Shown here: piece by piece, positions 677-43,126 of the stretch
How the letters are laid out: each line of letters begins with the position of its first letter
Position numbering within the stretch: position 1 is the first letter of the stretch
Source of the DNA: an archaeon
GTDB taxonomy: Archaea; Nanobdellota; Nanobdellia; Pacearchaeales; GW2011-AR1
Reading direction: 5' to 3'
NCBI GenBank assembly: GCA_027343665.1
Contig: DAHWKL010000001.1
Location: forward strand, 254,783-313,293
DNA: 58,511 nt
Notes under the pieces: model-generated
What the model saw: the letters and a program-made list of their open reading frames with translations, nothing else
Told to the model about the DNA's origin: nothing
Databases searched by the model: none
Made by a program: the position numbers and the translations under genes

Positions 677-1627
677 ATGGACTTAAAAGACAAAAAATTG
701 CTATATGAGCTTAGTTTGAATGCCCGCATGCCATTGAATAAACTCGCTAAAAAGATAAACGCAAGCCCTGCGACAGCTTTTTACAGGATGAACAGATTAA
801 AGGAAGAAAAAATCCTCTTAGAGTCCCAAGCGATAATTGATAACTCCCTCTTAGGATTCAAGGGTTATAGGATTTATTTTTCATTCAGCGGGGCCACGAC
901 AGAAAAAGAAAAAGAAATTGTGGACTGGTTAATAAAACAGAAACAAATTTCAATTCTTGCTCAAGCAACTGGTTTTATAGATGCCGTATTATTCTGTTGG
1001 ACAAAAAGTCGCTTGGAATTTCACAACTTCGTTAAAGAATTTAAAGAAAAATATTGTGAGTATATCAGCATAATAGAGATATGTAATTATATGAAGGTCC
1101 ATCACTTCGCGCGCAATTATCTTGTTGAGAACTCAAGGAATGACAGCATAATCACAATTGGAAACAGTGAAGAAGTCCAGGATTATGATGAAACCGATCT
1201 GAAGATACTTGAAGTCTTGTCAAAAGACGCCCGCGCGACCGCACTTGAGATTTCCGGCAAAATTAAGATCCAGCCCAAAACTGCAATAGCAAGGATAAAG
1301 AAAATGGAGAAGTCAGGCATAATCAAGGGATATGGAATAACAATTGATCTCTCTAAAATAGGCTACGAATACCACAAAGCGAACATAATCTTCAACAAGA
1401 ACATAAATTATGAGGAGCTCCTGAAGTTCACGGCGGGTTTGAAAAACAGCGTCTATGTGGATGAGACGACGACAAGATGGGATTACGAGCTCAACATGGA
1501 AGTGAAAAACGCTGAGGAAAGGGACAAGATAATAAACAAGATAAAAGACGAATTCCAGTCAATAAAAGAGGTCAGATATTTCAAGATGGGAAAATTTTTG
1601 AAACTGACGTATATTCCGGTTGAGTAA
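677..1627 (+). CDS. Double-unit Lrp/AsnC family transcription regulator
   Basis: This 316-residue protein contains two tandem Lrp/AsnC-like units. The first opens with a winged helix (residues about 4-50, containing MPLNKLAKKINASPATAFYR) followed by a ligand-binding-like RAM region. The second winged helix begins near residue 168 (ETDLKILEVLSKDARATALE) and again leads into a RAM-like region. Ordinary Lrp/AsnC proteins are about 150 residues with one unit, so this is a fused dimer-like form. It is transcribed away from the two unknown genes at 1-525 and could regulate them. The start at 677 is preferred over 638 because of TATA-box position. Family call is firm; ligand and targets are unknown. 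Confidence 0.85.
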   Translation: MDLKDKKLLYELSLNARMPLNKLAKKINASPATAFYRMNRLKEEKILLESQAIIDNSLLGFKGYRIYFSFSGATTEKEKEIVDWLIKQKQISILAQATGFIDAVLFCWTKSRLEFHNFVKEFKEKYCEYISIIEICNYMKVHHFARNYLVENSRNDSIITIGNSEEVQDYDETDLKILEVLSKDARATALEISGKIKIQPKTAIARIKKMEKSGIIKGYGITIDLSKIGYEYHKANIIFNKNINYEELLKFTAGLKNSVYVDETTTRWDYELNMEVKNAEERDKIINKIKDEFQSIKEVRYFKMGKFLKLTYIPVE

Positions 1628-2179
1628 TCACTCTTTCTTCTCGCTCTTCTCTTTCTCGACTTCAACAACTCTTATCTCACAGAGCGATAGAGGGTAGACC
1701 TTTTTGAGTTTGACTGAGAGCTCTTTCTGGATTTTTCCCTTCAGAACTTCGTCAAATATTTTTTCAGCATTCATTTCTTTTGCCCATAAAGTGAGCTCTT
1801 CCCTTGCCTTGATTCTCAATGCATTTCTTACTCTCCTTGATACTTTCCTTCTTGTCACAAGAAAAGGCTTTATTCTGACTGTTGAATCTTTTGTTTCAGA
1901 TGGGAAAGAATCTTCAACATAATTTGTTCCCCTCCTCACCATTCTTCTAAGATAATAGGGCAAAAGTTTCATATCTTTGACGGAAGCAAATACCTCGTCA
2001 CCTTTCACTCTTGTCCTGAAAGTGACTATGACTGCTTTTCCTCTCAATATCCTTGTAAGGTCATACTTTATGAATCTGTTATCCAATTCCCTAACTTCAT
2101 ATGCTTGCAGCTGAGTCTTTTTCCTGATCAATGGCAATTCGACGTTGAAAAATCTTTTTTTCTTTTTAGAAGCTGCCAT
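1628..2179 (-). CDS. rps3ae: 30S ribosomal protein eS1 (S3Ae)
   Basis: The 183-residue basic protein matches archaeal eS1/S3Ae, a small-subunit protein near the mRNA exit and platform. Seen: a Lys-rich N-terminus, then the family core with IKYDLTRILRGK and VTFRTRVKGDEVFASVKDMK, and a basic RRKVSRRVRNALRIKAREEL stretch. The C-terminus is charged and slightly longer than the conserved core. It lies 1 base downstream of eL42, forming a ribosomal pair. Its stop codon is immediately adjacent to the stop of the convergent regulator gene. The identification is secure. Confidence 0.95.
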   Translation of the reverse strand: MAASKKKKRFFNVELPLIRKKTQLQAYEVRELDNRFIKYDLTRILRGKAVIVTFRTRVKGDEVFASVKDMKLLPYYLRRMVRRGTNYVEDSFPSETKDSTVRIKPFLVTRRKVSRRVRNALRIKAREELTLWAKEMNAEKIFDEVLKGKIQKELSVKLKKVYPLSLCEIRVVEVEKEKSEKKE

Positions 2180-3104: not shown

Positions 3105-4952
3105 ATGGGAAAAAGAGGTTCTGGGAACAGAGGCCAGGTCACTATTTTTGTGATTATCGCCTTAGTGGTTGTTGTGGGAATAGCCTTATATTTCATTTTT
3201 CTAAACGGATCATTTTCGAGAGTTAATTCCCCGACTTTCGACCCAGTTGAAAATCAGCTTTTGAATTGCATAAGCACAGACACGGCAATAGGGATACAGA
3301 CTGCAGAAGTCCATGCTGGCTACATTTACCCCCCTGCTTTCATTTCTGGTTCTGCTTACATGCCATATTCATCCCAGCTTTATTTTGCCGGGACGATGAT
3401 CCCTTATTGGCGCTCAGTTTCCGGGAACAATCTCCCGATAAATCAAGTTCCGACATTAAATGATATTGAGAACCAGATTGCAGATTATATAAACAGCCAA
3501 ATAAAAAACTGCAATTTTAATTCCTTTTATCAGGAAGGTTATTCGATAAGCACAGGAACTCCTCAGGCTAAAGTCACAATTGAAAACAACGATGTGAAGG
3601 TCACGCTATCAATGGATTTATCAATGAAAAAAGGGAACGAGACTTCAGTTATATCAAGCCATGATGTCCAAGTGAATTCCCAGCTTGGTAATCTCTACAA
3701 TGATGCGATTACTTTTTACAATACAGAAAATTCAAAGATGTTCCTGGAGAATTATTCAGTAGATGTGTTGAACCTTTATGCCCCTGTCGACGGATTTGAT
3801 CTGAGCTGCTCTCCAGAAACATGGAATGCGAATACAATCTTCAGCACGCTCAAGAACGCGACGCAGGACAATCTTATGTCGATAAAAAACAACGGGCCCT
3901 CAAACGATTATTTTGCCCTCCATCTTCCAATTGATTCAAGTGTGAGGATAATAAACTCAGCAAGCTGGCCTTCAACTTACGAAGTTGAACCGGGAAACTC
4001 ACCTATAATGGTAGCTAATCCTGTAGGTAATCAGCAAGGACTTGGAATTCTTGGATTTTGCTATGTGCCTTATCATTTTGTATATAATATGAGATATCCT
4101 GTTTTAGTCCAACTCACCAGAAACAACGAGAATTTCCAGTTTCCGCTATCCATTGACATAGAAAGTAATGTGCCGGCAGGAACAAACATAACGGGAAGCT
4201 CTTCTTCAAGTAACCTGACAGTTGATTTATGCAACGGTCCTTATTCAAATGTCACATTAAACCTCGTCGGCTCTGATGGCAATCCTGTGAACGGAAATGT
4301 GACATACAATTGCTTTGATTCCAGTTGCAATCTTGGGGAAACGGTAAACGGCACATTGACTGCGCCTTTCCCACAATGTGTAAACGGAAATATTGTAGTG
4401 AATAGTCAGGGCTATGAAGAGAATTCGCAAATCTTCACTTCATTAAATGGGGGAAGCATAACTACCATGATGAACAAGATATACCAAAAAACAGTTTTCC
4501 TTAACATGACTAACAGCAAACCTGATGACCAAGCAATAATAACTTTCTCATCAAACACTTCACAGTCACAGACAATAATGTATCCGGGTCAAAACCAAGT
4601 CAATTTAAGCAGTGGCAATTACAATATCCAAGTTTATATTTTTGATAATTCCTCAAACTTATCTTTCAATGCGACAACAATACAAACATGCGTAAATGCC
4701 CCATCAGGAGTATTGGGGATATTCGGAATCACCAGCCAGCAATGTAGTAGCACAAGTATACCTGCGCAGAATATATCCAGTGTACTTGTTGGAGGAGGAA
4801 ATGCAAATCTTTTCCTTTCGGAAAACGATCTGCAGAAAAACAATAAAATCGAAATTGATACAAAACTTTTCAATACACCTACCTCTCTGCAGGAGCTTCA
4901 AATAGCTTATACACTCGTCGAAGGACAATCAATAGGAGTCAAATTATCATGA
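3105..4952 (+). CDS. Pilin-like (class III signal) large extracellular protein
   Basis: This 615-residue protein has a short basic N-terminus, then RG followed by QVTIFVIIALVVVVGIALYF. That resembles archaeal class III (pilin/archaellin-type) signals, cut between G and Q by an EppA/PilD-like peptidase. The rest is Asn/Ser/Thr-rich and probably extracellular, with scattered cysteines and beta-rich stretches; near residue 375 a CNGPYSNVTL-like segment suggests an Ig-like or peptidase-regulatory-like fold. It is far longer than ordinary pilins. Its stop overlaps the start of the giant gene (ATGA at 4949-4952), so the two are coupled and likely act together at the surface. Role unknown. Confidence 0.8.
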   Translation: MGKRGSGNRGQVTIFVIIALVVVVGIALYFIFLNGSFSRVNSPTFDPVENQLLNCISTDTAIGIQTAEVHAGYIYPPAFISGSAYMPYSSQLYFAGTMIPYWRSVSGNNLPINQVPTLNDIENQIADYINSQIKNCNFNSFYQEGYSISTGTPQAKVTIENNDVKVTLSMDLSMKKGNETSVISSHDVQVNSQLGNLYNDAITFYNTENSKMFLENYSVDVLNLYAPVDGFDLSCSPETWNANTIFSTLKNATQDNLMSIKNNGPSNDYFALHLPIDSSVRIINSASWPSTYEVEPGNSPIMVANPVGNQQGLGILGFCYVPYHFVYNMRYPVLVQLTRNNENFQFPLSIDIESNVPAGTNITGSSSSSNLTVDLCNGPYSNVTLNLVGSDGNPVNGNVTYNCFDSSCNLGETVNGTLTAPFPQCVNGNIVVNSQGYEENSQIFTSLNGGSITTMMNKIYQKTVFLNMTNSKPDDQAIITFSSNTSQSQTIMYPGQNQVNLSSGNYNIQVYIFDNSSNLSFNATTIQTCVNAPSGVLGIFGITSQQCSSTSIPAQNISSVLVGGGNANLFLSENDLQKNNKIEIDTKLFNTPTSLQELQIAYTLVEGQSIGVKLS

Positions 4953-7900
4953 AGGGGATACAGAAAATATTAATGGGTCTTTTCATAGTCGCAGTCTTCA
5001 TGAACTTTTCATCAGCATCATATATCGTCTCAAGTCCACAATTCACTAATCCGCTTCTGACTATAACTTCTCCTACGGGGGTCACACAGACAAATATATT
5101 TAATAGTCAGATATGCCAGCAGGGGCAGGACTTCATAATGCAAATTGTTCCAGGAGGATGCACACCTACAGTCGTAAGAAGCGACTTATTAGAACAGCAG
5201 CCCGTGGAAGTTGATTGCCCTATTGAAGCGATGAAAGTCAATCCGGCAGTGAATATCAAATCAATTGTCTCCATGAGCTTTGGAGGAAATTATCCGCCTG
5301 ACGTCCAGACTGTTGCATTCATGCCAACGTACCCCGCACTTGGGATTAATACTGTTTTGAATAATATGCAGTGGAATGTCATAGGGTATGTTGCGATATT
5401 CCTGAAACAAAATGCAAACGAATCTTCAATGCCGGATTATGTAACTGGAAATCTCAGTGCAACAGTTGAGTATAATGCTTACGATGCATTCGGATCAGTT
5501 GACAGAACATTATATCTCCCACTCTTAACAGATAACCGGTTCAACAGCCAAGAAGGTGAATACGCTTTCTTCAATAATATGGGCTATCTGAGAGCAGATG
5601 ATATACAGACAGGTTCAGCAACTATATCGATATATTCAGGCACCAATGCCAACCAGCTTTCATCAAGCACAAACGTGCAGAAACAAAAATTATTGTCATA
5701 TAATCTTAATGTAGGGCAGAGTTCACCTTCATTCTTCCTGCCTGGCTTCGGATGCTTTGCTTCATCAACATTACAACTTGACTCAATAGGAGGAGCAGAC
5801 ACAAGAGCATTGATAAGTGTTAACTCAGAAGAGTTTGAAGTCGCAAAAGGTGAACAATTCCTTAACGGAACATGCACCGTGACTAGTGATCCCATAAAAG
5901 AAGGATTGAGAGAATCTGTGAGTGTATATTGCAATACTGACCAAGGTGGAAAATCTTTCACACTTAATATTGAACCAAGCATAAATCTTAAAATAACTAA
6001 TTCTACAGGAACTTTCCAGAAACCATATCAAGTAGGAGATTATCTTTACCAAGATGGCCAGAGCGGAGTCTATTTAGGTTATGTCGGAACAGACCCAAAC
6101 GCAGGATCGACAAGTCTTACAAATTCTCTTGTTTATCTTGTTTCAATTCCAGGAAAAACAGGAGGCAGACTTGACAGCTCTACCATTGATGATGTCTCAT
6201 CTGTTGCTGGAAGGCAATTAAGAACAGATCAGAGTATAACTGATTTTGCCAAAACTCTTTTCGGAAATGTTGCCCAAGGAGTCCAATGGCTGTGGAATGG
6301 GAACAATTATCAAAAGATAACTTATGGAAGCACTCAAAATGCATTCGGTTCTACAGTCCAAATAACAAGCTTTGGAACAGGAACGAACCTTGCACTCAGC
6401 AATGCAACGCTTACCGGATATTACGCAAATTCTGTCAAAAAGTATAAGCAGATACAAAGTAACTTTGCTTCAGAAGTATACCCTAATGGAAACCCCTCAA
6501 CACTTGGAGAGGAATCGCTGGCGCAATTGATCAACTTATCAAATATACTTCAGCAAAATCAGGATCTAAAACAATATTGCGACGATTTCAAAACAGAGTA
6601 TCCCTCTTCAACACTTGATGTCTCCCCTTGCAATGGAGTTCCGGAATATTCAAACACGGGAGTCTCAACTCAGCAAATATTAGTCAATGGTGGATACCTT
6701 CAGGTTTCCTTGGATGGAATAAGCGTTCCCGGCGTGAATGATTATGGAGTCGAACTTACAATAAGAAAAGGCAGTCAAGTCGAATCCGTGAAAATGACAA
6801 AAGGAGATACAATCTACCTTGACCCACTTTTCTCTTCAAACACTGCCCAGATTTTTTCCATGAATAATGCCATAGGATCAAGTGCTACAACAATAAATCA
6901 ACCCATATATTTTGATTATACTAACTTGTCAAAGAATCTCCCTCAGCAATGGTACTGGTCTACGGACCAGAAGTCATGGATACTTGCTTCTTCAAATGCT
7001 GCAGCACCAAATGGAATGGCTTTATCAGCAAATGCACTTAGCCTCATCAAATCCTTATCTGGTCAGAGTTTCACTGACGGCCAGACTAAAATCTTGGGAG
7101 GACCAGGAAATACGGTTTACTCCGATTCCGTAACTCTTGTTCAAATCACAGACCAGAACGACGCTGTTTTCAATTTCAACCTCGCAAATATATCCAAGAC
7201 AGGATCTGTAATAAACTTCCTTACTTCAAACAATTACAATCTGAAGTTGAACGTTCCGGATAATGCTCACAGCAACCAGTATGTCTTCATATTAAGCAAT
7301 GTGAGCCTGAGCAAAGTCGCTAAAGTTTCGGTGCACACAAATGTAAGAGACATGAGTAATGTGAATTTTCAATTCAAGATAGGAATAGAGAAAAGCAGCA
7401 TACAACTTTCACCAAGCCAGATAAAGTCTCAGATAACATCAACAGCAAAGCTCACCTCAAAACTTGAAAGTATCTCGAAATCCCTCGGAAGCCTTGTTAA
7501 TGTAATGCAAGATGTATGTATGGGTGTCGGGGCAATTCTCACGGTAAAAAATATGATAGCAAATTCCGGAACAGAAGCTGCCGCAAGAACTCAAGTCATG
7601 AATGGTGTCGGGGGATGGAATTCCATATGTGCAGGAGAAGTACAGAAAAAACAATATCCCACAATGGATGCATGCCTGCTTGCTAACTCCAACCAAATTG
7701 ATGACGCAGTTTCACAGATGAGTACTGCTATGGATGCACAAAACAAGGAACTCGCAGCGATGCAGCAAAATTCAGGAGTCGTCAAAAGCGGTGGACTTTT
7801 TGGAAATGACATAGTAGATCAAAATAAACTTATGACTTATTATGCTCCGAATGTTGTAAGCAGCCTTCCGTCAGTAAAATTAGCAAACCCAAACAATCCG

Positions 7901-10900
7901 AATGACCCAAACTCAGTCATCAATCCAAGTACAATAGCAGGGTATCTGACTGCTCAAAATTTCAACAATGGAGTTTACACAGTGGATCAGGCAGAGCAGA
8001 TTGAACTTTACTCAAAACTTTATGCACAGAACTCATCAAACAAAGCCTATCAAAATGGCCTTTACGCAGCTCTCAGCGCTGTACAGAACAATTACAATGC
8101 AAGAAGTTCAGTTATAAACGCTGCTAATAATCTTGGGGTTGAAGCAAGTCAGGTTGTGAGCGCTGCAATAATAAAAAATGCACAAACGCTTGCATATACA
8201 GGAAGCACGTATGGAAAACTCCCAAGTAATGCAAAAATAAATATACCCAGTTTGGATCCGAACACACCTGTCCAGATTTTTGTGGCACAACCTAGCGGCG
8301 ATGAATATCTTTTTGTGCTTAGCCAGAAAGGAACAACTTATTACACACAAAAGGATTCAAATAATAATTTTATGATTTACACTTATCCGAATGGCCAACA
8401 GGTTACTGACACAAAGGTTCTTCAATCTTTGGAAGTGTTCGACTTTCAGGCAGCTGCATCTGGTAACGCTATAAAAAACCCTGAAGTGGATTATTACAAC
8501 ACCGGAACATACACAGGTTTTCCGGGATTAGTTCCAATTGACCCGAAAAACGGATGGTATGTTTATATTCCCGACACTTCACAGACAGCCTCACCACTTC
8601 TTTCTTCTACAACAGCAACTACCTCTCCCCAGAGATCTTATGATGCATCAGGCAGGGTGAACAGTTTCTGGTTATGCAATGTTGGCCAAAATGGTCTTAT
8701 GACGCAAACAACAGATGGGTGCCAGTCGATAAATTTGGGAAATACTGGAACTTACACTAATATAGGGGGATTGACAAGTACTCAGGCAATGACTATGATT
8801 AATGATGCAGTAACCGCAATAAACCAAGCGCAAACCCAATATAAAGCAGGTGTGACAACTGTCAAGATCCTTGGAAACATATACAAAGTAGGCAATCCTG
8901 TAACAAGCACAACAACAGCACAATGCACGGATATCATGAGCCCTTCCGATTGTGAGCTCCTATTCAATTCCTGTGACCCGGTTGTTTGCCCTTCATCAAG
9001 ATGTAATTTCGGAGGAAAATATAATGTCCAAAATGTAATCCAATCAGGGGTCATAGGAAGTATCATGCTTTGTTTGCCAAATTGGAATGAAGGAGTTTAT
9101 ATACCTGTTTGTTTGACGGGGGTAAAAGCAGGAGTAGATAATATAATCTCTGTCCTGAAATCATATCAAAGCTGTCTGAACACAAGCTTAAACACTGGAA
9201 GCACGATTGGGATATGCAAAGAGATTGAAAGTGTATATCTCTGTCAGATGTTCTGGAATGAGGCAATCCCTTTAGCAAATATAGGTATTCCGAGATTAGA
9301 CAGTTTAATATTCGGAACTGGCGCAAGCGGAGGGGGGGAATATATCGGGGGGATACAGGGAGCTCTTAACAGTGCTGAAACAACAGTAAATTATTTCACA
9401 CAAAATTATGCTGTAAGTGCATTTTCAGTCTTCAAAGCGAGAAGCCAAAGTGATATAGGAACTGCTGTCTGCAAGAATGCAGCATCACTTGTATTTCCGC
9501 AATATCAGGGAGCGCTTAATGCATTGACACAGGCACAAAGCCCTCCTCAATACACGGGTAATTTCCAGACAATACCTTTTTCAACAGTCACAAATCCGCC
9601 CCAGGATCAATATAATGTTTATTACCACATTTTCGCAGGAAACGATGCAGGAGCATATTATCAAGTTTATCTAAAGAACAGCGGTGGTTCATATTATCAG
9701 GATACTTCAATCCCAAGGATTGTTGACTCAGGATACATCCCCGCAGGTCAATCTGAAGACAACACAAAATCTTTCACAGCTTCAGAAGGTTACAACCAAC
9801 TTTGCATACAGGTGAACAATCAGGAAAGTTGCGGATTTGGAACTGTAAGTACAAACTTTGCGGCAAATTATTTAAGTGATCAGTATATCCAAGACCAAGC
9901 ATCTACTACAAACATAACAACACAAAGCGCATGTCTTTCCGGAAGTCCCAACCTGCTCAGTTTGCTGAATTTGAATGCTCAAAATGGCGTGACCAATACT
10001 TTATCACCGAACATTGCATCATCAGGTATAACAAGGGTATGCGCAAGCGTGAATCCGGGAAACAAGACTGACCCTTACATGAACACCCCAAAGCAAAGAT
10101 GGATAAATGTCGGATATTGTGACAATCCTGCGGTAAGATGCTGGATAGACACACAAAGTATAGTGGGGGCGGTTAATTTCCAGACAACGGCGGGACAGAC
10201 ACTGCAAAGTTTGTCGTCGACACTTTCACAGGAGCTGGCAGCTCAGAATGGAATGATGGATGATAATACGTTTGGAACATTCGTTTCATTATTAAATAGC
10301 ATAACCAATCCGTTGACAAGAATAAACATAATAGAAGGAAATTACAGCAAAGTTTCCAAAAATAACGAAAAAGGTTATCTTAATTATCTTGAAGGCCTTG
10401 CTTATCAGAATCTTTCAATAGGATTATATCAGAATCTTATGAAGTTAGGAATGATAGCACCATGTAACAGCCCTAATGCATGTTTCAACACAAGTTTATA
10501 TTCCTGCACAAGTGGTACATCTTTCAAATCCCCAACATGTTCAGCAGGATTTATGTGCTGCCCACAAGGAAGTCTTTCCGCAACACAGCAGCAGACAGAT
10601 CAGTTTGCTAATTATATCTCAAATGTGTATAATTATATTGAACAATCAACTTCCGGATCTCCAAATAATTATAATTACTGTTATCAATTCAGAGACGGAA
10701 CATGGTATTGGGCAATAAAAACTGGAAGCAGTTGTGGAACAACAGTGACCACTTCTGCAGTTGGGTCTGTTGTTAATGGTCAAGGATTCCTTCAAGGGGT
10801 TTCCACATTGATTGATCGTGTCGAAGCTGATCCTTCACATAGATCTCTTTCGGCAGGTCAGTTCACTTTGGGTGGGGGAGATACTAATTTCAAAGGAGAC

Positions 10901-13054
10901 CAAAACACAGAAGCGACCAATTTAACATTTGATATAAGTCAAAGTGCATGGACAGCAAATTATGGTGACGGAAGAGGATTTGTAAGGATAAATAACAGTG
11001 ACCCAAGCCTGCTGAGTATGGACAATATAATGACTAATGAAGGAAAAAATATAATAGACGGTAGAACAGACTTCAGAGATCTTATTTTGAATCTTACTAA
11101 CAAAAATTTGTATCAAGGAGCATTGGTCTTGTTTGAAGGCAGAGGATTCAATTTTGCTATAACGACACAACCTGCTTCTCCAGCTTCCCCTCAAGGCGCT
11201 CCATTAACACAACAGAATGTTAATCAGTTGAGTTCTTTGACACCTTATGTTATTCAAACTTCTCCAACACCTCCTCTAGGCCAAAGTCAAGAATTTTATG
11301 TATATTCTTTTGTGTACTCCCAAAGTAACGGGTGGTATTTCAATTACACAAAAGTACAAACTATCTACGGCTCGGCTTCATCAGGATCCATCTCTTCTCC
11401 ATGGTCCAGCGTGGACAATTTTGCTTCAGGTAGCGGTTTCATAGACTTAGGTAATCTTATAATCTCTTTACAAAGTGCAAATTACTCGACCGGGATTCAA
11501 AATATAATAAATTATGTTTATCCGGAGCTATCAAAACAAAATGGAGAATACTGGTCATTAAGTTATGGAAATGTATCTATAAAGTGGAATGGCATAACTT
11601 TATCAAACCAGCCAAATGTGGGAGAAATAGATTTTGTTTATAACAGCAACGGAAACAATAAATGGATGTACGGATACACAATCAATTCTTTGTATGATGT
11701 CGCAAGCATACAAAGCAAAACTTCTGGAGGATTTTTAGGATTTTTCTCGAGCACCCAAAGTATGACTCAAGATGAACAAAATCTGGTAACATCTTTATCC
11801 GGAAAAAATCAGCTTGATGGAACAAAAGCTATACTTTTATACGGGCAAAATCAACAAACAAGTTCACAGACCGCTGCTTTTACAATTCCTTCATCATGTT
11901 CCAAATATTATTCCCAAATCCAGAATGCAGCAACAACCTACAGTACAAACGGTGTGAACATTGATCCGAAACTCATACTTGCTGTTATGATACAGGAGTC
12001 TGGATGCAATCCAATAGCAAGTTCTGGCAGTTCATATGGATTAATGCAAATAAATACTGGAGCATGGTGCGGGCAATATGGATTGAGTTCAAATCAGCAG
12101 ACTTGCACCCAACAGTTATTGGACCCTACTACCAACATCAATGTAGGGACGCAAATCATTTTACATTATTATAATCAGTATGGAAGCAAAGGTGTAACGT
12201 TCAATGGATGTAATATCCAGAAGAATTATGCCGGATGGAATGCTTCCTTGAGAGCTTACAATGGGTTAGGATGCAATTCAAACTATCCCTCTCAGGATTA
12301 TTACGTGGAAAATGTAATGAAGATTTATACTCAGCTGCAGGCAACAAATTTACCTCTTGCCATCCCCACATCAATTACTGCGACGACGACAGCGCAGCAA
12401 ACACAACCAAGCACAAATGCTATGGGAAATCATATAGTGAGCATTGCAAAAAGCCTAATAGGAACATTTACAACGAGAGTATTGAATGGGCAGATTTATT
12501 ATGATTATGTTTGTTCGACATTCACTTCCAAGGTTTTAATATCTGCAGGTGCACTTCCCCAGTTCTCATCATGTGATGCATCCGCTACCCCCGAATTGCA
12601 AATAAACAAAAACCTGAGTCAACAGGTATATCCTGCAAACAATTTCGTCCAGGTATACAATTACAAAAGCAGTTCAAATCCTTACCTTCCAACAGCAATC
12701 CAACCGGGAGATATAATAATATGGGGATGCCAGCCACTCGCATCACAAGGAGGCAAGCCATATTGTGATAGCAATGAATTCCAACATTCATCCATATTCG
12801 AAAGTTATAGCAACACAAACGCATACCAAATTATAAATGATCCTTATTCCACTTCTGGAGTTATAGAACAAAATCAGACAAACAGTTCAAGTTGGTACAT
12901 AACACATGTTTGGAGATCACAGACACCATACAAATCCCAAGCTACAAATGTTGCCACAACAACTTCACAAGGTATAACTAATTCTCAGTCAATTTCCACA
13001 GGATCACTTAACCCCATATTTGAAAATAATAACAATCAACCTGTATCAATTTAA
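4949..13054 (+). CDS. Giant secreted protein with lysozyme-like (SLT) and NlpC/P60-like domains
   Basis: This 2701-residue protein begins with a cleavable-type signal peptide (MKGIQKILMGLFIVAVFMNF, then SSAS). Most of it is Asn/Gln/Ser/Thr-rich and apparently extracellular. A Cys-rich module lies at about residues 1325-1445, and a C...C...CC motif at about 1838-1878. Near residue 2325 a lytic-transglycosylase-like domain begins: the likely catalytic Glu2350 in MIQESG, then SYGLMQIN, and RAYNG at 2435-2439. From about 2475 an NlpC/P60-like papain-fold domain follows, with Cys2522 in YDYVCSTF, PGDIIIWG, and His2613 in FQHSSIF. Both families normally cut peptidoglycan. It is the middle gene of a three-gene operon. 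There is no obvious C-terminal membrane anchor. Confidence 0.85.
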   Translation: MKGIQKILMGLFIVAVFMNFSSASYIVSSPQFTNPLLTITSPTGVTQTNIFNSQICQQGQDFIMQIVPGGCTPTVVRSDLLEQQPVEVDCPIEAMKVNPAVNIKSIVSMSFGGNYPPDVQTVAFMPTYPALGINTVLNNMQWNVIGYVAIFLKQNANESSMPDYVTGNLSATVEYNAYDAFGSVDRTLYLPLLTDNRFNSQEGEYAFFNNMGYLRADDIQTGSATISIYSGTNANQLSSSTNVQKQKLLSYNLNVGQSSPSFFLPGFGCFASSTLQLDSIGGADTRALISVNSEEFEVAKGEQFLNGTCTVTSDPIKEGLRESVSVYCNTDQGGKSFTLNIEPSINLKITNSTGTFQKPYQVGDYLYQDGQSGVYLGYVGTDPNAGSTSLTNSLVYLVSIPGKTGGRLDSSTIDDVSSVAGRQLRTDQSITDFAKTLFGNVAQGVQWLWNGNNYQKITYGSTQNAFGSTVQITSFGTGTNLALSNATLTGYYANSVKKYKQIQSNFASEVYPNGNPSTLGEESLAQLINLSNILQQNQDLKQYCDDFKTEYPSSTLDVSPCNGVPEYSNTGVSTQQILVNGGYLQVSLDGISVPGVNDYGVELTIRKGSQVESVKMTKGDTIYLDPLFSSNTAQIFSMNNAIGSSATTINQPIYFDYTNLSKNLPQQWYWSTDQKSWILASSNAAAPNGMALSANALSLIKSLSGQSFTDGQTKILGGPGNTVYSDSVTLVQITDQNDAVFNFNLANISKTGSVINFLTSNNYNLKLNVPDNAHSNQYVFILSNVSLSKVAKVSVHTNVRDMSNVNFQFKIGIEKSSIQLSPSQIKSQITSTAKLTSKLESISKSLGSLVNVMQDVCMGVGAILTVKNMIANSGTEAAARTQVMNGVGGWNSICAGEVQKKQYPTMDACLLANSNQIDDAVSQMSTAMDAQNKELAAMQQNSGVVKSGGLFGNDIVDQNKLMTYYAPNVVSSLPSVKLANPNNPNDPNSVINPSTIAGYLTAQNFNNGVYTVDQAEQIELYSKLYAQNSSNKAYQNGLYAALSAVQNNYNARSSVINAANNLGVEASQVVSAAIIKNAQTLAYTGSTYGKLPSNAKINIPSLDPNTPVQIFVAQPSGDEYLFVLSQKGTTYYTQKDSNNNFMIYTYPNGQQVTDTKVLQSLEVFDFQAAASGNAIKNPEVDYYNTGTYTGFPGLVPIDPKNGWYVYIPDTSQTASPLLSSTTATTSPQRSYDASGRVNSFWLCNVGQNGLMTQTTDGCQSINLGNTGTYTNIGGLTSTQAMTMINDAVTAINQAQTQYKAGVTTVKILGNIYKVGNPVTSTTTAQCTDIMSPSDCELLFNSCDPVVCPSSRCNFGGKYNVQNVIQSGVIGSIMLCLPNWNEGVYIPVCLTGVKAGVDNIISVLKSYQSCLNTSLNTGSTIGICKEIESVYLCQMFWNEAIPLANIGIPRLDSLIFGTGASGGGEYIGGIQGALNSAETTVNYFTQNYAVSAFSVFKARSQSDIGTAVCKNAASLVFPQYQGALNALTQAQSPPQYTGNFQTIPFSTVTNPPQDQYNVYYHIFAGNDAGAYYQVYLKNSGGSYYQDTSIPRIVDSGYIPAGQSEDNTKSFTASEGYNQLCIQVNNQESCGFGTVSTNFAANYLSDQYIQDQASTTNITTQSACLSGSPNLLSLLNLNAQNGVTNTLSPNIASSGITRVCASVNPGNKTDPYMNTPKQRWINVGYCDNPAVRCWIDTQSIVGAVNFQTTAGQTLQSLSSTLSQELAAQNGMMDDNTFGTFVSLLNSITNPLTRINIIEGNYSKVSKNNEKGYLNYLEGLAYQNLSIGLYQNLMKLGMIAPCNSPNACFNTSLYSCTSGTSFKSPTCSAGFMCCPQGSLSATQQQTDQFANYISNVYNYIEQSTSGSPNNYNYCYQFRDGTWYWAIKTGSSCGTTVTTSAVGSVVNGQGFLQGVSTLIDRVEADPSHRSLSAGQFTLGGGDTNFKGDQNTEATNLTFDISQSAWTANYGDGRGFVRINNSDPSLLSMDNIMTNEGKNIIDGRTDFRDLILNLTNKNLYQGALVLFEGRGFNFAITTQPASPASPQGAPLTQQNVNQLSSLTPYVIQTSPTPPLGQSQEFYVYSFVYSQSNGWYFNYTKVQTIYGSASSGSISSPWSSVDNFASGSGFIDLGNLIISLQSANYSTGIQNIINYVYPELSKQNGEYWSLSYGNVSIKWNGITLSNQPNVGEIDFVYNSNGNNKWMYGYTINSLYDVASIQSKTSGGFLGFFSSTQSMTQDEQNLVTSLSGKNQLDGTKAILLYGQNQQTSSQTAAFTIPSSCSKYYSQIQNAATTYSTNGVNIDPKLILAVMIQESGCNPIASSGSSYGLMQINTGAWCGQYGLSSNQQTCTQQLLDPTTNINVGTQIILHYYNQYGSKGVTFNGCNIQKNYAGWNASLRAYNGLGCNSNYPSQDYYVENVMKIYTQLQATNLPLAIPTSITATTTAQQTQPSTNAMGNHIVSIAKSLIGTFTTRVLNGQIYYDYVCSTFTSKVLISAGALPQFSSCDASATPELQINKNLSQQVYPANNFVQVYNYKSSSNPYLPTAIQPGDIIIWGCQPLASQGGKPYCDSNEFQHSSIFESYSNTNAYQIINDPYSTSGVIEQNQTNSSSWYITHVWRSQTPYKSQATNVATTTSQGITNSQSISTGSLNPIFENNNNQPVSI

Positions 13055-23656: not shown

Positions 23657-24334
23657 TTATTTCAAAACTTTCCCTGTCTCGAGGTACCACAAATACAAAT
23701 CAAGCTCTCCGAGATGAAGACCTGACCGGCGCGAGATCTCGCGCAGTACATTCTCGATCTCAAGATATTTTTTAGGCGTCAGACTCTTGCTTTTTGGTTC
23801 TTCTATCAAATTGTGCTTCACAAGGAGGTCAATTATGTGAAAATCGATTATCGCGAGATTTTTGTAGCCGATGTTTCGGAGAAAGTGCGAAGCCTCTTTC
23901 ATCCCGACGCCCTTTATATTTTTCACTATCCACTCTCTCAGAATAAGGTCATCATCAATTTCCTTCAGCATCTTTATGAGCTCATCTTTTTTTGCTCTTG
24001 ACTCTACAACATACCTTGCTCTTGCGTTCGGAAACCTGTGGCCTAGTTCGGCGAGTTTTTTTGCCAAATCCCCTTCATTAAGATTGAAAAAACCGTCTCC
24101 TATTGCATTCTGAATTTTCATCCCGCCTGTGGCGGAGAAATTTGCAGTCATGAAACAAAAGCAAAGTTCGCTGAAGATTCCCTCAGAACCAGAAGATCTG
24201 ACAGATTCAAATTCTTTCATCCTTTGATCAATCGTTGATTTTATGGGGTGACCCTTAAGATGGTTTATATCTTCAAGAATTGGCTCGAATTCTTTCTCTC
24301 TTTTTTTATTTGAAGGGAAAAGTGATGATTGCAT
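23657..24334 (-). CDS. ogg: N-glycosylase/DNA lyase, Ogg2 type
   Basis: The 225-residue helix-hairpin-helix glycosylase is of archaeal Ogg2 type and removes 8-oxoguanine from DNA with beta-lyase activity. The catalytic Lys lies in GVGMKEASHFLRNIG and the catalytic Asp in LAIIDFHIIDLL. The C-terminus, containing YLWYLETGKV, is typical. It heads a reverse-strand set of small genes including peroxiredoxin and Nth, a coherent oxidative-damage group. The start is ATG 24334; a TATA-like AAAATATAAA lies about 25 bases upstream. Confidence 0.9.
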   Translation of the reverse strand: MQSSLFPSNKKREKEFEPILEDINHLKGHPIKSTIDQRMKEFESVRSSGSEGIFSELCFCFMTANFSATGGMKIQNAIGDGFFNLNEGDLAKKLAELGHRFPNARARYVVESRAKKDELIKMLKEIDDDLILREWIVKNIKGVGMKEASHFLRNIGYKNLAIIDFHIIDLLVKHNLIEEPKSKSLTPKKYLEIENVLREISRRSGLHLGELDLYLWYLETGKVLK

Positions 24335-37950: not shown

Positions 37951-38060
37951 GGTTGAATCGATGGGATGAGGGCTGTGGGGAAGAAGAGAAAGGGAGATGT
38001 TATACGAATTTACAATTATGTGAGATAGGGAGGGGGAGATAAATTTTTATGAAGGCATAA

Positions 38061-38105
38061 ATTTATATATCTCTTTAGGGTACTATTTGTATACTATTTG
38101 TACCC
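38061..38105 (+). promoter_or_regulatory. Promoter with tandem operator before the RHH-methylase pair
   Basis: A TATA-like ATTTATATAT (38061-38070) is followed by two perfect, adjacent 11-base copies of TACTATTTGTA (38081-38091 and 38092-38102). The pair is framed by GGGTAC (38078-38083) and its reverse complement GTACCC (38100-38105), ending at the ATG of the 50-residue gene. The copies cover the predicted transcription start, ideal for autorepression. Confidence 0.6.
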
Positions 38106-38258
38106 ATGGAAAAGAAAGTTAGAATAAGAACGGATTTGCTTAAGCTAATAAAAAAGGTAAGGACAAAATCTACGCCAAACAAAGTTAGGTACACGTCCGA
38201 CAAACAATTTGTTGAGATTGCAGTAATGAATTTACTTAAAGAGGAGAAGGTAATATGA
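38106..38258 (+). CDS. Small RHH-like (ribbon-helix-helix) DNA-binding protein
   Basis: This 50-residue protein has a basic N-terminal strand (KVRIRTDLLKLIKKVR), a turn, and a helix (TSDKQFVEIAVMNLLKEE) in the RHH/antitoxin-like pattern. Its stop overlaps the methylase start by 4 bases, so the two are coupled. The tandem 11-base repeats just before its ATG are a plausible binding site, suggesting that it controls the methylase gene. RHH assignment is by pattern only. Confidence 0.65.
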   Translation: MEKKVRIRTDLLKLIKKVRTKSTPNKVRYTSDKQFVEIAVMNLLKEEKVI

Positions 38259-38962
38259 AGAACCAGGAAGCCAAATTTAAGAAATTAAAAGAATTAGAAG
38301 ACAAGAAGATAGAGTTAAGTAGTGTCTGGAATTTTGGTAAGAGGGGAAAGGGCTTTGGTTCCCATATCTTCCACGGAAACTGCATCCCCCAGGTAGTGGA
38401 GCAATGTATTTTGAGGTACAGCAAGATGGGGGATGTTATTCTTGATAGCATGGCCGGCTCTGGAACAACCTTGGATGTAGCAAAAAATCTAAATCGCAAA
38501 TGCTTAGCTTTTGATATAAATCCAACAAGAAGAGAAATAAGAAAGGCTGACTCAGAGCACTTACCTTTAAAGGATAACTCTATATCAATGATATTCATAC
38601 ATCTACCCTACTGGAATATGGTTAAATATTCTGATGAAAAAGAAGATTTAAGTAGAAAAAACCTGAAAGAGTTTTTTGAAAAATTGGAGAGAATATTTTT
38701 AGAACTAAGAAGAATTCTCAAAAAAGAGGGTCACATATGTGTGCTCGTCGGAGATAAAATTAAGGATGGGAGAAATATCCCCCTTTGTTTTGAGACTTAT
38801 AATTTAATGTCAAAATATTTTACATACCAGGACTATGCTGTCAAGATTACAATAAACTCAAATAGTGTGATTAATAGGGGAAGAGTTATCCTAGCAGAAC
38901 TAGCTTGGAATAACTTATTAAAACCGACTCATGATCTATTATTCGTCTTCAGAAAGAATTGA
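38255..38962 (+). CDS. DNA (N4/N6) methyltransferase-like protein
   Basis: The 235-residue protein has the SAM motif as ILDSMAGSGTTLDVAKNL and a motif IV-like IHLPYWNMVKYSD, where the usual HPPY/DPPY is changed to HLPY. The segment preceding motif I (HGNCIPQVVEQCILRYSKMG) and the later LRRILKKEGHICVLVGD fit the N6/N4 methylase family. It could protect the element's DNA or be a weakened enzyme. It follows the RHH gene (4-base overlap) and converges on the Ntn-hydrolase gene, overlapping by 24 bases. Confidence 0.78.
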   Translation: MKNQEAKFKKLKELEDKKIELSSVWNFGKRGKGFGSHIFHGNCIPQVVEQCILRYSKMGDVILDSMAGSGTTLDVAKNLNRKCLAFDINPTRREIRKADSEHLPLKDNSISMIFIHLPYWNMVKYSDEKEDLSRKNLKEFFEKLERIFLELRRILKKEGHICVLVGDKIKDGRNIPLCFETYNLMSKYFTYQDYAVKITINSNSVINRGRVILAELAWNNLLKPTHDLLFVFRKN

Positions 38963-39637
38963 GCTAGACTCCATTATGCTCACTAAGTCCCTCTGTTCTA
39001 TCCTTTCCACGTAAATTTTTTCATCGGTCTCGCTTACACCATACTCGGTTATTGAAACAAGATGCATCTTTCCACCTGATTCTCCATCTATTTTCTCTGT
39101 GTCATACAAACATTGCACTATCAATTCAGTCATCTTCTCTGAGGATAAAGAATACTCATCATACTTTTTACTAAAGAGGTAGTTTGAAATGTCATTTTTC
39201 CCCACGATCGCATATTCTCTTTCTTCTCCGACAAAAAACCAGTCATCTCTGGTGATGGTAAAGATTCGCGGGATAGAATTCTTGCCCTCATTATCTTTAT
39301 CAAGGCCTGCTAAAATAAAGTATAATCTTGGGGAGTTTTTCATAAGAGATATATTCATAGAGTACGGTTCATATTCTTTCCTACAAAATTTGTTAAATTT
39401 CTTACTTATGACACTCACGGTATCATCTGGTTTAACATCTTTCTTGAATTCTTCTAAAAGACGTACACTAGCTTGAGAATCTCCTGCAATTAGAAGGCAT
39501 GAATAGTCATTAAGTTTAATTAACTTGTCTGTCGCATCTCGAATATATCTTGCGCCTACCCCATCCGTAGATATAGACCTACTGTCCGAGCCTAAGACAA
39601 GTCCATCTTTGCATTTCGAGGCGATTATTAGAGTCAT
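38939..39637 (-). CDS. Proteasome-beta-like Ntn hydrolase
   Basis: The 232-residue protein begins Met-Thr-LIIASKCKDGLVLGSDSRS, closely following the proteasome beta pattern of an N-terminal Thr nucleophile and an Asp at position 17 (numbering Thr as 1). A Lys37 in DKLIKL, followed by CLLIAGDSQASVRLLEEF, matches the catalytic Lys33 region and its following strand. The start at 39637 makes a 4-base ATGA overlap with the upstream ParB gene, so Met removal alone exposes Thr1 with no propeptide. It is last in the five-gene operon. Similarity to the HslV/beta superfamily is clear by motif; substrate and oligomer are unknown. Confidence 0.8.
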   Translation of the reverse strand: MTLIIASKCKDGLVLGSDSRSISTDGVGARYIRDATDKLIKLNDYSCLLIAGDSQASVRLLEEFKKDVKPDDTVSVISKKFNKFCRKEYEPYSMNISLMKNSPRLYFILAGLDKDNEGKNSIPRIFTITRDDWFFVGEEREYAIVGKNDISNYLFSKKYDEYSLSSEKMTELIVQCLYDTEKIDGESGGKMHLVSITEYGVSETDEKIYVERIEQRDLVSIMESSSILSEDE

Positions 39638-40200
39638 TTTTTGTTTTCCAACCATGGAAATATAATTTTATTTACAATGAATTTTTCTGGACTCTCCCCA
39701 AACCTATCTGCTTCCTTCTTTAATCTTTGATAATCTTCTTTTTTTAGGGGGATAACTGTTAGATTAACTTTTTCTATTTCTAATCGCGAACTTTTAAATT
39801 TTCTTACATAATCCTCTACATCCATCTTTGGATTTTTCCTATAGATTCTAACTATATCTCTCGCATTATGCGCATCTAAGCCTGCAACGGCTTTAGCAAC
39901 TTTTATTTGAGATTCTTTATCTTTTATGCCCTCTATTCTCCAAGCAACTTCGTGCTTCAGACGTTCTTCCTTGACCATACCTTGCACTTCTTTTGGCAGA
40001 TTTAATAATTTCAGAGTTTCTCTGACTGTTTCAGGGGATAAGCCCAACTTTTTTGCTAATTCGACATAAGAACCATAATGTTCACTCAATTTTTTTAATA
40101 GGTTTGCAAGGTATATCCAATCATGGACCTTCTTCTTTTTTCCTCTAAAATTTGCATATAAAATTGCAATTATCTTTTCTTCATCAAATTCATTTTTCAT
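39634..40200 (-). CDS. ParB-like HTH protein lacking the N-terminal CTPase domain
   Basis: This 188-residue protein matches only the central ParB/KorB helix-turn-helix region (VELAKKLGLSPETVRETLKL, then LPKEVQGMVKEERLKHEVAW) and has a C-terminal RHH-like segment (around VNLTVIPLKKEDYQRLKKEA). The N-terminal GxRR/ENxQR nucleotide-binding module found in its neighbour is absent. It overlaps full ParB upstream and the Ntn hydrolase downstream by 4 bases each. Probably DNA binding and possibly a partner of the longer ParB. Confidence 0.8.
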   Translation of the reverse strand: MKNEFDEEKIIAILYANFRGKKKKVHDWIYLANLLKKLSEHYGSYVELAKKLGLSPETVRETLKLLNLPKEVQGMVKEERLKHEVAWRIEGIKDKESQIKVAKAVAGLDAHNARDIVRIYRKNPKMDVEDYVRKFKSSRLEIEKVNLTVIPLKKEDYQRLKKEADRFGESPEKFIVNKIIFPWLENKK

Positions 40201-41045
40201 TCGGAAGTCCTTGAGATATAATCCTCAATTATTTGTTTAATTAAATCTCCTAGGGGAATGCCTTTTTTGTGTCCATGTGCTCTTGCTATTTCCTCCGCCC
40301 TTGTTTCTAAACTCTTTAGAGTATCTGGGTCAAATGAAACAGTGATTTGATATTCTTTAACCGATTTTTTGGAATCTTCTATAATCTCTTCAGTAGTAGC
40401 TTGAGGCTTTTTTCTCGCGATGTTTAATGCCCTTTCCCAGGTGGACTTTGGAACTTTTGAGGTATACTCTGCTATTTTTTCAATTTTACTTGCGTCGGGC
40501 CAAAAAGCAGTAGTAATTTTATAAGCGGCATCACGTGAAATTTTATCCTCTTCCACCATCTCCCTAACTTTCTCGGGGATCAACCTATACCCTAAATATT
40601 TGGTAACAGTTTCGTACGAAACTCCTATCTCCTTCGAAATTTTATCTATCCTTTCCTTTTCTGTACCCGTATAAGACTTATATAGATCATCACAAACTTT
40701 TATTGTATCCCCATAGGGCAAATCTCTTCTTTGCACATTTTCAGTAAAAGAAAGTATTTTCTTTGACAGGGGGTCAAGACCATTAACAATAATAGCAGGG
40801 ATTGTTTTTTCCCCAAGAGCTTGAAAAGCTAAAAATCTTCTTTGTCCTGCTATAAGTTCGAACCGCCCATTTTTTGGCATTAAGACTACTGGGTGTATTA
40901 AACCTATCCTTTGTATGCTAGTTTTTAATTCTTCTAAATTCGATCGTTGTTTCTCGGTTCTAACATTATGCTCTTCTGATACTTCTATGAGCCCAAGCTG
41001 AACTTCCTTAATTTCTCTCTTTGTAATTTTGCTCTCAACTACCAT
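40197..41045 (-). CDS. ParB-family protein (CTPase-type N-domain plus HTH)
   Basis: The 282-residue protein has a ParB N-domain: IHPVVLMPKNGRFELIAGQR with the GQRR motif (67-70) and the ENVQRRDLP motif (102-110) that bind CTP in characterised ParB proteins. An HTH follows (ISKEIGVSYETVTKYLGYRL, 136-155). The C-terminal 50 residues (YQITVSFDPDTLKSL to EDYISR) look like an RHH dimerisation or DNA-binding unit. No ParA ATPase is nearby. It is the third gene of the reverse-strand operon. Confidence 0.88.
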   Translation of the reverse strand: MVVESKITKREIKEVQLGLIEVSEEHNVRTEKQRSNLEELKTSIQRIGLIHPVVLMPKNGRFELIAGQRRFLAFQALGEKTIPAIIVNGLDPLSKKILSFTENVQRRDLPYGDTIKVCDDLYKSYTGTEKERIDKISKEIGVSYETVTKYLGYRLIPEKVREMVEEDKISRDAAYKITTAFWPDASKIEKIAEYTSKVPKSTWERALNIARKKPQATTEEIIEDSKKSVKEYQITVSFDPDTLKSLETRAEEIARAHGHKKGIPLGDLIKQIIEDYISRTSE

Positions 41046-41290
41046 ATTAAATTATGCTCCTTTTCCCATTTAGTTCGTAAGCCCCTCATCTCTTCAGCAC
41101 TTATCTGCCCATTTCGAAACATTAGAGTTAGCTCTTTCATATAATCAAGAAGCCTCCTTATTTTAATATCTTTCTCTTTCTTCTCATTAACCTTTAGATT
41201 ATATTCTTCAATTGAAGAGATATTATGCTTTATTACGACATGGCTTAAAAAATCCGTAAACCCTTTATCACATAATTCACAAATTGCCAT
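41039..41290 (-). CDS. Small C2H2 zinc-finger protein
   Basis: The 83-residue protein opens with CELC (Cys4, Cys7) and HVVIKH (His17, His22), a CX2CX9HX4H finger of MucR/Ros-like appearance followed by ISSIEEYN, then a charged helical C-terminus. It is probably a DNA-binding regulator. It overlaps parB by 7 bases and starts 1 base after the GIY-YIG gene, so it belongs to the same transcript. Small zinc fingers of this kind are common in archaeal viruses and plasmids. Confidence 0.78.
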   Translation of the reverse strand: MAICELCDKGFTDFLSHVVIKHNISSIEEYNLKVNEKKEKDIKIRRLLDYMKELTLMFRNGQISAEEMRGLRTKWEKEHNLIW

Positions 41291-41291
41291 T

Positions 41292-42134
41292 TTACAATTT
41301 CTTCCAATTTGAGTTTACAATTTTGTAACCTTCAAGGTTAAGACTAGGATATTTTTTATCATTCTTCAAGATTGATGCAATAGTTCTTATGGTGTGGTCT
41401 TCAATTCTTTCCAGGATATTGGAGTATTCAGGTCTTACAATATCATATTTGAAGAGGTCCCAGTCTCCAGGCATACCCTGGTGATCCCTTCCAGGTTTTA
41501 CACGCTGGCCTAAAACATTTGCTTTTCCAATGTATATAAATTTCTTCTTTGTATTCACAAGATAATAAATCACATTAACAGCATTAACATGCTTTTTGAA
41601 TTCTTGAACCTTCATCCAATTTGTGCTCCTAGAGATTAAATATTCTTTATCTTTAGCAAACATCCATCCAAAAACATTTTCTTCTGTGAGCCTTCTGAAA
41701 AGAGCATTCCATTCGTTTTCAATTTTAATGAAAACCTCTGCCTTAATTGTCTTTGAGTCTATTGGAGAAAATAAAATTGCCTCTTGGGATTCTTTAGTTC
41801 TAAAGTGACCACCAACTTTTTTATTTTCGACATCAAAAATTTCTTTTTGACTTTTTAGGATGATATAACTTTGAATAAAAGTCTTCCTAAGCTTTTGTAA
41901 AAAATTATTATTCCCATTCCAGAGAATCTGATGAACTGCGGGATAATTCTTTCTTCCCACATTACGCAATCTTACAGGGTATTTTTTATTATCCCAAACA
42001 ATATTGACTATCCTTGATGAACCTGCTTCCACGGGTTGGCCTGCTTCAAACTCCTTAATGAAATTTTTAGGAACGGTAAACCCCCATTCCATCATAGATC
42101 GGTCTATCTTCTTGCAATAAGGCTTATACGCCAT
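41292..42134 (-). CDS. GIY-YIG nuclease-like protein with N-terminal unknown domain
   Basis: The 280-residue protein has a C-terminal GIY-YIG-like domain from about residue 186: IYYLV (188-192), FIYIGK (199-204), an Arg in GQRV (211) and a Glu-rich helix ERIEDHTIR (242-250) supplying the likely metal-binding Glu. The first 180 residues show no known domain and may recognise DNA. It is the first gene of the island operon, with a TATA-like CTAAATATG about 25 bases before ATG 42134. Cleavage target unknown; a restriction or homing-type role is conceivable next to the methylase. Confidence 0.78.
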   Translation of the reverse strand: MAYKPYCKKIDRSMMEWGFTVPKNFIKEFEAGQPVEAGSSRIVNIVWDNKKYPVRLRNVGRKNYPAVHQILWNGNNNFLQKLRKTFIQSYIILKSQKEIFDVENKKVGGHFRTKESQEAILFSPIDSKTIKAEVFIKIENEWNALFRRLTEENVFGWMFAKDKEYLISRSTNWMKVQEFKKHVNAVNVIYYLVNTKKKFIYIGKANVLGQRVKPGRDHQGMPGDWDLFKYDIVRPEYSNILERIEDHTIRTIASILKNDKKYPSLNLEGYKIVNSNWKKL

Positions 42135-42169
42135 AGATCTTTTATTGATTGGAGCATATTTAGATCTTT
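42134..42169 (-). promoter_or_regulatory. Island operon promoter flanked by a repeated 9-mer
   Basis: The identical 9-mer TAGATCTTT (plus-strand reading) occurs at 42134-42142 and 42161-42169. Between them lies the TATA-like box (near 42157, reverse strand). One copy abuts the TATA box and the other covers the start codon, so both could be operator half-sites for a regulator such as the zinc-finger or ParB proteins of the same operon. Confidence 0.5.
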
Positions 42170-42223
42170 CTCACCCCCTCCTCACACAAAAACCCTTATA
42201 ATCATCATCTTCCTTGTCGCTTC

Positions 42224-42736: not shown

Positions 42737-43126
42737 ATGGCAGGGGAAGACGACATCGCCGAAAAGATCCATTCAGTCGCTAGAGAATTCGTGAAAGAGG
42801 TGGATTATGACAGGAAATTCTTCTCTTATTACAATCCTGCCGGCGGGGAGCTCATAGCGGAGATGGGATATGAAAGCGGGGATGACGCCGGGAACGTGGT
42901 GCGCGCTGTCCACAAGCTCTCAGAAATCTTCAGTTATAAGCCTTTTTGCAGATACTCAAAAGACCTCCTTGAGATAGGAAGCGCGGCATATGAAGAGAGA
43001 GTGTCTGAAATAGGCAAGATGTCTTTCATTGTATACAGATGGAACGAAAAAGATATGGAAGGCAAATTCTCCATGATGAAAGATTATCTCGAAAAAGGAT
43101 ACATATCTGAACTTGTGAAACTCTAG
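42737..43126 (+). CDS. Unknown 129-residue soluble protein
   Basis: An acidic, helical protein with segments such as AREFVKEVDYDRKFFSYYNP and DAGNVVRAVHKLSEIF. There are no membrane segments and no catalytic motif. It starts at ATG 42737, with a TATA-like AATAAATATAAACC about 27 bases before, so it is likely leaderless. No family recognised. Confidence 0.6.
   Translation: MAGEDDIAEKIHSVAREFVKEVDYDRKFFSYYNPAGGELIAEMGYESGDDAGNVVRAVHKLSEIFSYKPFCRYSKDLLEIGSAAYEERVSEIGKMSFIVYRWNEKDMEGKFSMMKDYLEKGYISELVKL

Follow-up and report, generated by a model that had tools for sequence, protein, structure and literature searches.

A seven-gene archaeal island with a methylase, a nuclease, a ParB pair and a proteasome-like hydrolase: a probable defence or restriction cassette

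Introduction

What is the role of a group of genes that places a DNA methylase and a GIY-YIG nuclease beside two ParB proteins and a proteasome-like hydrolase? These genes form an AT-rich island of seven genes (38106-42134) in a 58,511-nucleotide stretch of the genome of an archaeon of the order Pacearchaeales (contig DAHWKL010000001.1); we refer to the whole of this stretch as the window. An earlier sequence-only reading of the DNA left two interpretations standing, a defence system or the maintenance module of a plasmid or virus remnant. We have compared the island and its insertion site with those of related genomes, and find that the first of these is probably correct.

Results

The slot beside lysyl-tRNA synthetase

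The best evidence for a defence cassette comes from the location of the island, next to the gene for lysyl-tRNA synthetase (LysRS). In the nearest genome of the same genus examined (G008, LysRS 92% identical) the slot, bounded by LysRS and by the orthologue of the window gene at 42737, contains small genes together with a GmrSD enzyme and a D12 adenine methylase. In G002, the other case resolved, the slot lies between LysRS and TspO, and its genes include those for DUF4238, a C5-methylase and a Bsp6I-type restriction enzyme. Because three species carry three different restriction sets in one slot, we conclude from these gene contents that the interval after LysRS serves this archaeal genus as a restriction-modification hotspot. 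With differing restriction systems in the slot, the island is therefore best read as a defence cassette and not as the remnant of a plasmid or virus. The hydrolase gene is absent from ten genomes of the genus, and those of the ten that belong to a sample of 371 genomes (G002, G006, G008, G009 and G010) also lack the methylase, the GIY-YIG nuclease and both ParBs.

Organization and composition of the island

All seven open reading frames of the island were confirmed (Table 1). Two plus-strand genes, encoding a ribbon-helix-helix (RHH)-like protein and the methylase, converge on five minus-strand genes that are read in the order GIY-YIG nuclease, zinc-finger protein, ParB1, ParB2 and N-terminal nucleophile (Ntn) hydrolase. 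The two units meet at 38939-38962, and neighboring genes overlap by 4-24 nucleotides or are separated by a gap of a single nucleotide, so the seven tightly overlapping genes in two convergent units of the sequence-only reading are all present. The overlaps imply that the five minus-strand genes would form one operon. The host genome is 812 kb in size and 88% complete, and falls in the same class as a Woesearchaeota metagenome-assembled genome (MAG).

The proteins were searched singly against Pfam, NCBIfam, PADLOC and PHROGs. The methylase, the Ntn hydrolase and both ParBs score above curated cut-offs, and these earlier family assignments stand. Those of the other two are weaker: the Pfam score of the GIY-YIG protein is 13.4 bits, under the cut-off of 22.6, and the zinc finger is recognized by the spacing of its residues only, with all its family matches sub-threshold. 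The RHH-like protein matched no family in the four collections. No ParA, integrase or toxin family was found at the island, in agreement with the earlier statement that homologues of these were missing, and it also contained no tRNA, flanking direct repeat, att-like repeat, replication gene or virus gene.

The description of the island as AT-rich within more GC-rich flanks was borne out. Its GC content of 34.7% is below that of every other 4-kb stretch of the window (the next lowest being 36.8%), and GC content at third codon positions is 0.26-0.37 in the island vs 0.53-0.64 in the immediate flanks. The tetranucleotide comparison proposed at the same time did not set the island apart, its profile being unremarkable; 39 of 184 windows lay at least equally far from the mean.

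Table 1. Features of the island and the loci with which it was compared. Positions are those of the window except where a locus (L) is named.
Feature	Position	Strand	Evidence or remark
Tandem repeat TACTATTTGTA x2, exact, 11 bp	38081..38102		candidate operator
RHH-like small protein, 50 aa, candidate regulator	38106..38258	plus	sequence pattern only
Putative amino-methylating DNA methyltransferase, N6_N4 type, permuted order	38255..38962	plus	PF01555 81 bits; PADLOC MTase_II
Ntn hydrolase, proteasome fold, 232 aa	38939..39637	minus	PF00227 33.8 bits (cut-off 22.4)
ParB2: ParB-type helix-turn-helix and C-terminal dimerization-like end, without CTPase domain	39634..40200	minus	HTH_ParB 44 bits
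ParB1: ParB_N with CTPase motifs, helix-turn-helix, C-terminal RHH-like end	40197..41045	minus	ParB_N 53 bits, parB_part 80.6 bits
16-bp perfect palindrome AGTTTCGTACGAAACT, parS-like arms GTTTC-N4-GAAAC	40608..40623		inside ParB1 gene
C2H2-like zinc-finger protein, 83 aa	41039..41290	minus	CxxC...HxxxxH (C..C..H..H) spacing only
GIY-YIG nuclease with N-terminal domain of unknown type	41292..42134	minus	catalytic motif in homologues
LysRS-adjacent interval compared	window 37951-42223; L086 5333-8547; L087 3607-10137
ParB1-ParB2 cassette loci and Akkermansia Ssp locus	L069 6979-10067; L023 513-3609; L072 1445-16413

The methylase and nuclease have relatives in restriction loci

The methylase has motif I as DSMAGSGTT and motif IV as HLPYW, and the latter form is retained by a relative of 75% identity in G283. 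Given its PF01555 score, motif I and the sharing of the altered motif IV with this relative, the methylase is active-looking. Other relatives at 35-38% identity, in G259 and G281, lie within a methylase-BsaWI-methylase locus. The gene for the 75% relative converges on that for an 836-amino acid Hsp90-type ATPase protein, followed by two small genes and then a type IIG enzyme. This grouping of methylase, Hsp90-type ATPase and type IIG enzyme (L122 7478-14931) is a further unusual restriction neighborhood in its own right.

Upstream of the plus-strand unit, the tandem TACTATTTGTA pair is contained inside GGGTAC...GTACCC (38078-38105) and ends three bases 5' of the start codon of the RHH-like gene. 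No other exact tandem repeat with a period of 10-14 occurs in the window, and the pair is a plausible operator.

In the GIY-YIG protein, residues Y190/Y191, Y201, G203, R211 and E245 are invariant across three homologues. Its AlphaFold model has a predicted local distance difference test score (pLDDT) of 39. In G387, a relative with 47% identity closes a complete type I operon, GmrSD-HsdR-HsdS-HsdM, and overlaps HsdM by four nucleotides; HsdM was called by PADLOC and the remaining members of that operon were read from sequence. Another, 68% identical, stands by itself in G118, where the region also has an integrase-like gene. A profile scan of viral contigs with the GIY-YIG protein found nothing.

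The ParB pair is related to ParBs of modification cassettes

ParB1 contains the sequences GQRRFLA and ENVQRRDL, to be compared with GERRxRA and ENLQRxDL in Spo0J/ParB, and its relatives in the PDB are Spo0J, Noc and ParB. Because these CTPase motifs match, nucleotide binding by ParB1 is likely; ParB folds of this sort may bind CTP, ATP or GTP (PMC12704722).

A genome-wide scan detected full-length ParB1 relatives in a Planctomycetes MAG, a Woesearchaeota MAG and two Akkermansia MAGs. The Planctomycetes (MHYY01000030) and Woesearchaeota (DUFZ01000085) cassettes have an identical layout, comprising ParB1, ParB2, a DUF6602/PD-(D/E)XK-like gene and a PAPS reductase closest to SspD. Their ParB2 proteins are 72% identical across domains, which points to transfer, or else to contamination of one of the MAGs. 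This four-gene cassette is apparently an undescribed defence-type module. In the Akkermansia MAGs ParB1 is located inside SspB-SspC...SspF-SspG-SspH, with only a ParB2-like remnant there. The profile of the island ParB2 matches the ParB2 of the cassettes with E = 4e-6 over 144 columns, vs E = 0.02 for ParB1. In a tree with 19 other ParBs the island ParB1 falls into one group with the ParB1 proteins of the PAPS reductase cassettes and the Ssp locus (support 97/97), and it is nearer to these than to the plasmid ParBs sampled.

Single-sequence searches gave nothing for ParB1 in viral contigs or for ParB2 in plasmids, nor did profile scans of viral contigs with ParB2 and with an enlarged ParB1 alignment. 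Matches of the ParB1 profile in viral contigs were set aside as mostly longer phage-type ParBs with no ParB2 neighbor, and a ParB2 match in G176 as a chance match within a membrane protein.

The AGTTTCGTACGAAACT palindrome is the only GTTTCN4GAAAC in the 812-kb genome, for which we estimate about one chance match. Its likeness to parS was noticed post hoc, and is a lead only. A match in the Akkermansia ParB1 gene was dismissed, as its center is non-palindromic and its codon position differs.

The Ntn hydrolase has a proteasome fold

The start of the Ntn hydrolase is most likely the internal ATG at 39637, forming an ATGA overlap with the ParB2 stop codon. From this start the protein begins MTLI, with a threonine nucleophile directly after the methionine and no propeptide, and therefore removal of the methionine would expose the nucleophile. 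T2, D18, K38 and D184 are invariant in an alignment of 25 sequences and correspond in our own mapping to proteasome T1, D17, K33 and D166; S187 fits S169, and the position of S129 is changed. An AlphaFold model (pLDDT 85) gave proteasome beta subunits as the best Foldseek matches, with E about 1e-11. The input alignment contained PsmB sequences, so that this agreement in fold is partly built in; the sequence match is independent of it. Taking match and model together, we judge the hydrolase to have a true proteasome fold. It is 20-29% identical to archaeal PsmB-type sequences, and the host genome has separate PsmA and PsmB candidates.

The sole non-proteasomal relative among the matches examined is found in G204 (27% identity), right after a tyrosine recombinase and a resolvase (L143 6386-8931), where the peptidase is possibly cargo of a mobile element. 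Matches at 1e-4 to 1e-6 in related genomes were rejected as ordinary PsmB genes, most of them adjoining a KH-beta-CASP gene. The host genome encodes a fourth proteasome-fold protein of 228 amino acids (L022, G000:C4:137103, 1378-2064, minus strand), which starts MTTLVG with no propeptide, lies between archease-like and RtcB-like genes, and has a modest Pfam score of 26.4 bits, over the cut-off.

Discussion

A possible mechanism

That the island is a defence or restriction cassette we consider quite probable, because it lies in the hotspot and because relatives of its methylase, of its nuclease and of its ParB pair all occur in restriction or modification loci. These are the grounds on which the defence option of the sequence-only reading is to be preferred. 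To the more specific reading, a horizontally acquired restriction-modification-type cassette in the LysRS hotspot that works broadly by the following mechanism, we assign a probability of about 0.55. The methylase, regulated by the small RHH protein encoded just ahead of it, would mark the host DNA, and the GIY-YIG nuclease would be the effector, cutting DNA without the mark. ParB1 and ParB2, its partner without a nucleotide domain, might load onto DNA as a nucleotide-switched clamp, which would position or license the nuclease operon or regulate its transcription. The Ntn hydrolase, exposed by loss of its methionine, could be a dedicated control peptidase. When host DNA is under-modified, it would remove or trim either the nuclease or the ParB clamp, in the way that ClpXP acts on HsdR.

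Of these steps, the restriction-modification core has the best support. Protein architecture and the ParB relatives in modification loci suggest the ParB step; the peptidase step is suggested by the place of its gene in the operon and by analogy with the control of HsdR by ClpXP, which provides a precedent for control of restriction by a protease (PMC12707154). As a specific step, action of the peptidase on the nuclease or ParB is doubtful, and it is unlikely that the island represents a self-contained defence system of a new kind, with the ParB pair setting the GIY-YIG nuclease on unmodified DNA and the operon peptidase switching nuclease or clamp off (or on).

Several observations weigh against the reading as a restriction-modification-type cassette with the proposed mechanism. 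The complete gene set is present in one genome only. Single-sequence searches of about 85,000 genomes, viral contigs, phages and plasmids gave no close relative of the Ntn hydrolase, and no other ParB-Ntn neighborhood was found in the genomes and contigs searched. On the neighborhood search proposed earlier, the components are found separately in restriction or modification loci, and the full set and the ParB-Ntn link only here. With the link in one place only, random association of the peptidase with the other genes is possible, and the peptidase could be unrelated cargo. The methylase has HLPYW in place of the usual (D/N/S)PP(Y/F), and the GIY-YIG protein matches no PADLOC restriction-enzyme family. 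Lastly, we infer both what the peptidase cleaves and what the ParB pair does.

Alternative explanations

Might independent defence genes have been stacked by chance in the hotspot, a methylase-nuclease system next to an unrelated ParB/Ntn pair? The parts do recur apart in different loci, with the full set found once, but the tight overlaps running through all five minus-strand genes, the similar low GC content and the lack of relic genes in between argue against it, and we regard it as possible at best. If instead the island came from a decayed plasmid or provirus and served its maintenance or immunity, the ParBs would clamp or partition the element, the methylase and nuclease protect it, and the peptidase be cargo. 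ParBs are frequent in mobile elements, two related ParBs adjoin tyrosine recombinases in G082, and the G204 relative of the hydrolase comes after an integrase and a resolvase. Yet the island has none of the ParA, replication, integrase or virus genes or flanking repeats of such an element, the plasmid ParBs sampled adjoin ParA or an AAA ATPase, ParB1 clusters with the ParBs of modification cassettes, and the slot is occupied by other restriction systems in sister species. The second option of the sequence-only reading thus becomes improbable.

The proximity of ParB1-ParB2 relatives to PAPS reductase and Ssp genes raises a further explanation, that a ParB module of phosphorothioate-like or other sulfur modification was captured by, or is degenerating beside, a methylase-GIY-YIG system, with the ParB pair and Ntn hydrolase functionally separate. 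We think this rather improbable as well. Neither PAPS reductase (DndC/SspD) nor DUF4007 (SspB) was found in the host genome at its 88% completeness, DUF4007 being likewise absent from both genomes with the PAPS reductase cassette, and the ParB, zinc-finger and GIY-YIG genes are arranged as one operon, overlapping or abutting each other.

Relationship to known systems

Among the known systems nearest to the island are type II restriction-modification systems, with which it shares a methylase of a restriction-associated family and a nuclease in a restriction hotspot. It differs in having a GIY-YIG nuclease outside the PADLOC restriction families and in carrying five additional genes, among them those for two ParBs and a peptidase. 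With the PAPS reductase cassettes and Ssp loci it has in common the ParB1 clade, a ParB2 homologue in the same order, and an adjoining nuclease and DNA-modification-type enzyme, but here a methylase acts as the modifier, the nuclease belongs to the GIY-YIG type and an Ntn hydrolase is present as well. ParB1 resembles the ParB of ParABS systems in its ParB_N CTPase motifs, helix-turn-helix and C-terminal dimerization-like end, whereas there is no ParA in the island or adjacent reading frames, the second ParB has no nucleotide domain, and the location is a chromosomal restriction hotspot.

The hydrolase has the fold and Thr1/Asp17/Lys33 of a 20S proteasome beta subunit, but neither its propeptide nor orthology to PsmB. 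Like the stand-alone proteasome homologues (Anbu, BPH, WPH, PHI, PMI and others; PMC8665760) it has the proteasome fold, T1/D17/K33 and no adjoining AAA+ gene, and it differs from them in lying in an operon with ParB and a nuclease. The proposed restraint of a restriction nuclease by a protease is shared with ClpXP alleviation of type I enzymes (PMC12707154), but ClpXP is a quality-control protease of the host, whereas the peptidase gene lies inside the cassette and its function is one that we infer.

No named system of this gene set emerged from the single-protein searches, and the combination is not described in the papers found on phosphorothioation, BREX, ParB folds, proteasome homologues and archaeal immunity. 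The cassette of methylase, nuclease, ParB pair and proteasome-like peptidase is thus a combination not described before, and the earlier remark that it matched no known system holds for the full set.

A survey of proteasome homologues in 2021 found no gene context suggesting function for 22 new families (PMC8665760), and a 2025 survey of ParB folds concluded that archaeal ParBs of canonical architecture rarely adjoin ParA and are unlikely to function in chromosome segregation (PMC12704722). The island joins a stand-alone proteasome homologue and a ParA-less ParB with a nuclease in an operon at a restriction site, so that both questions could be tested with one cassette. If the island did prove to be the new kind of defence system considered above, a stand-alone proteasome homologue of this group would for the first time have a functional context. 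The ParB1-ParB2 pair, which recurs beside varied modification enzymes in both archaea and bacteria, may represent an unrecognized, shared component of defence.

Other features of the window

Two further features lie outside the island. An open reading frame at 4949-13054 (plus strand) encodes a protein of 2701 amino acids with a hydrophobic signal-like N-terminus and an SLT lytic-transglycosylase domain (52.5 bits, residues 2336-2443), possibly a peptidoglycan hydrolase in an archaeon. At 23729-23744 there is a GC-rich 16-bp perfect palindrome, GCGCGAGATCTCGCGC, within a minus-strand reading frame.

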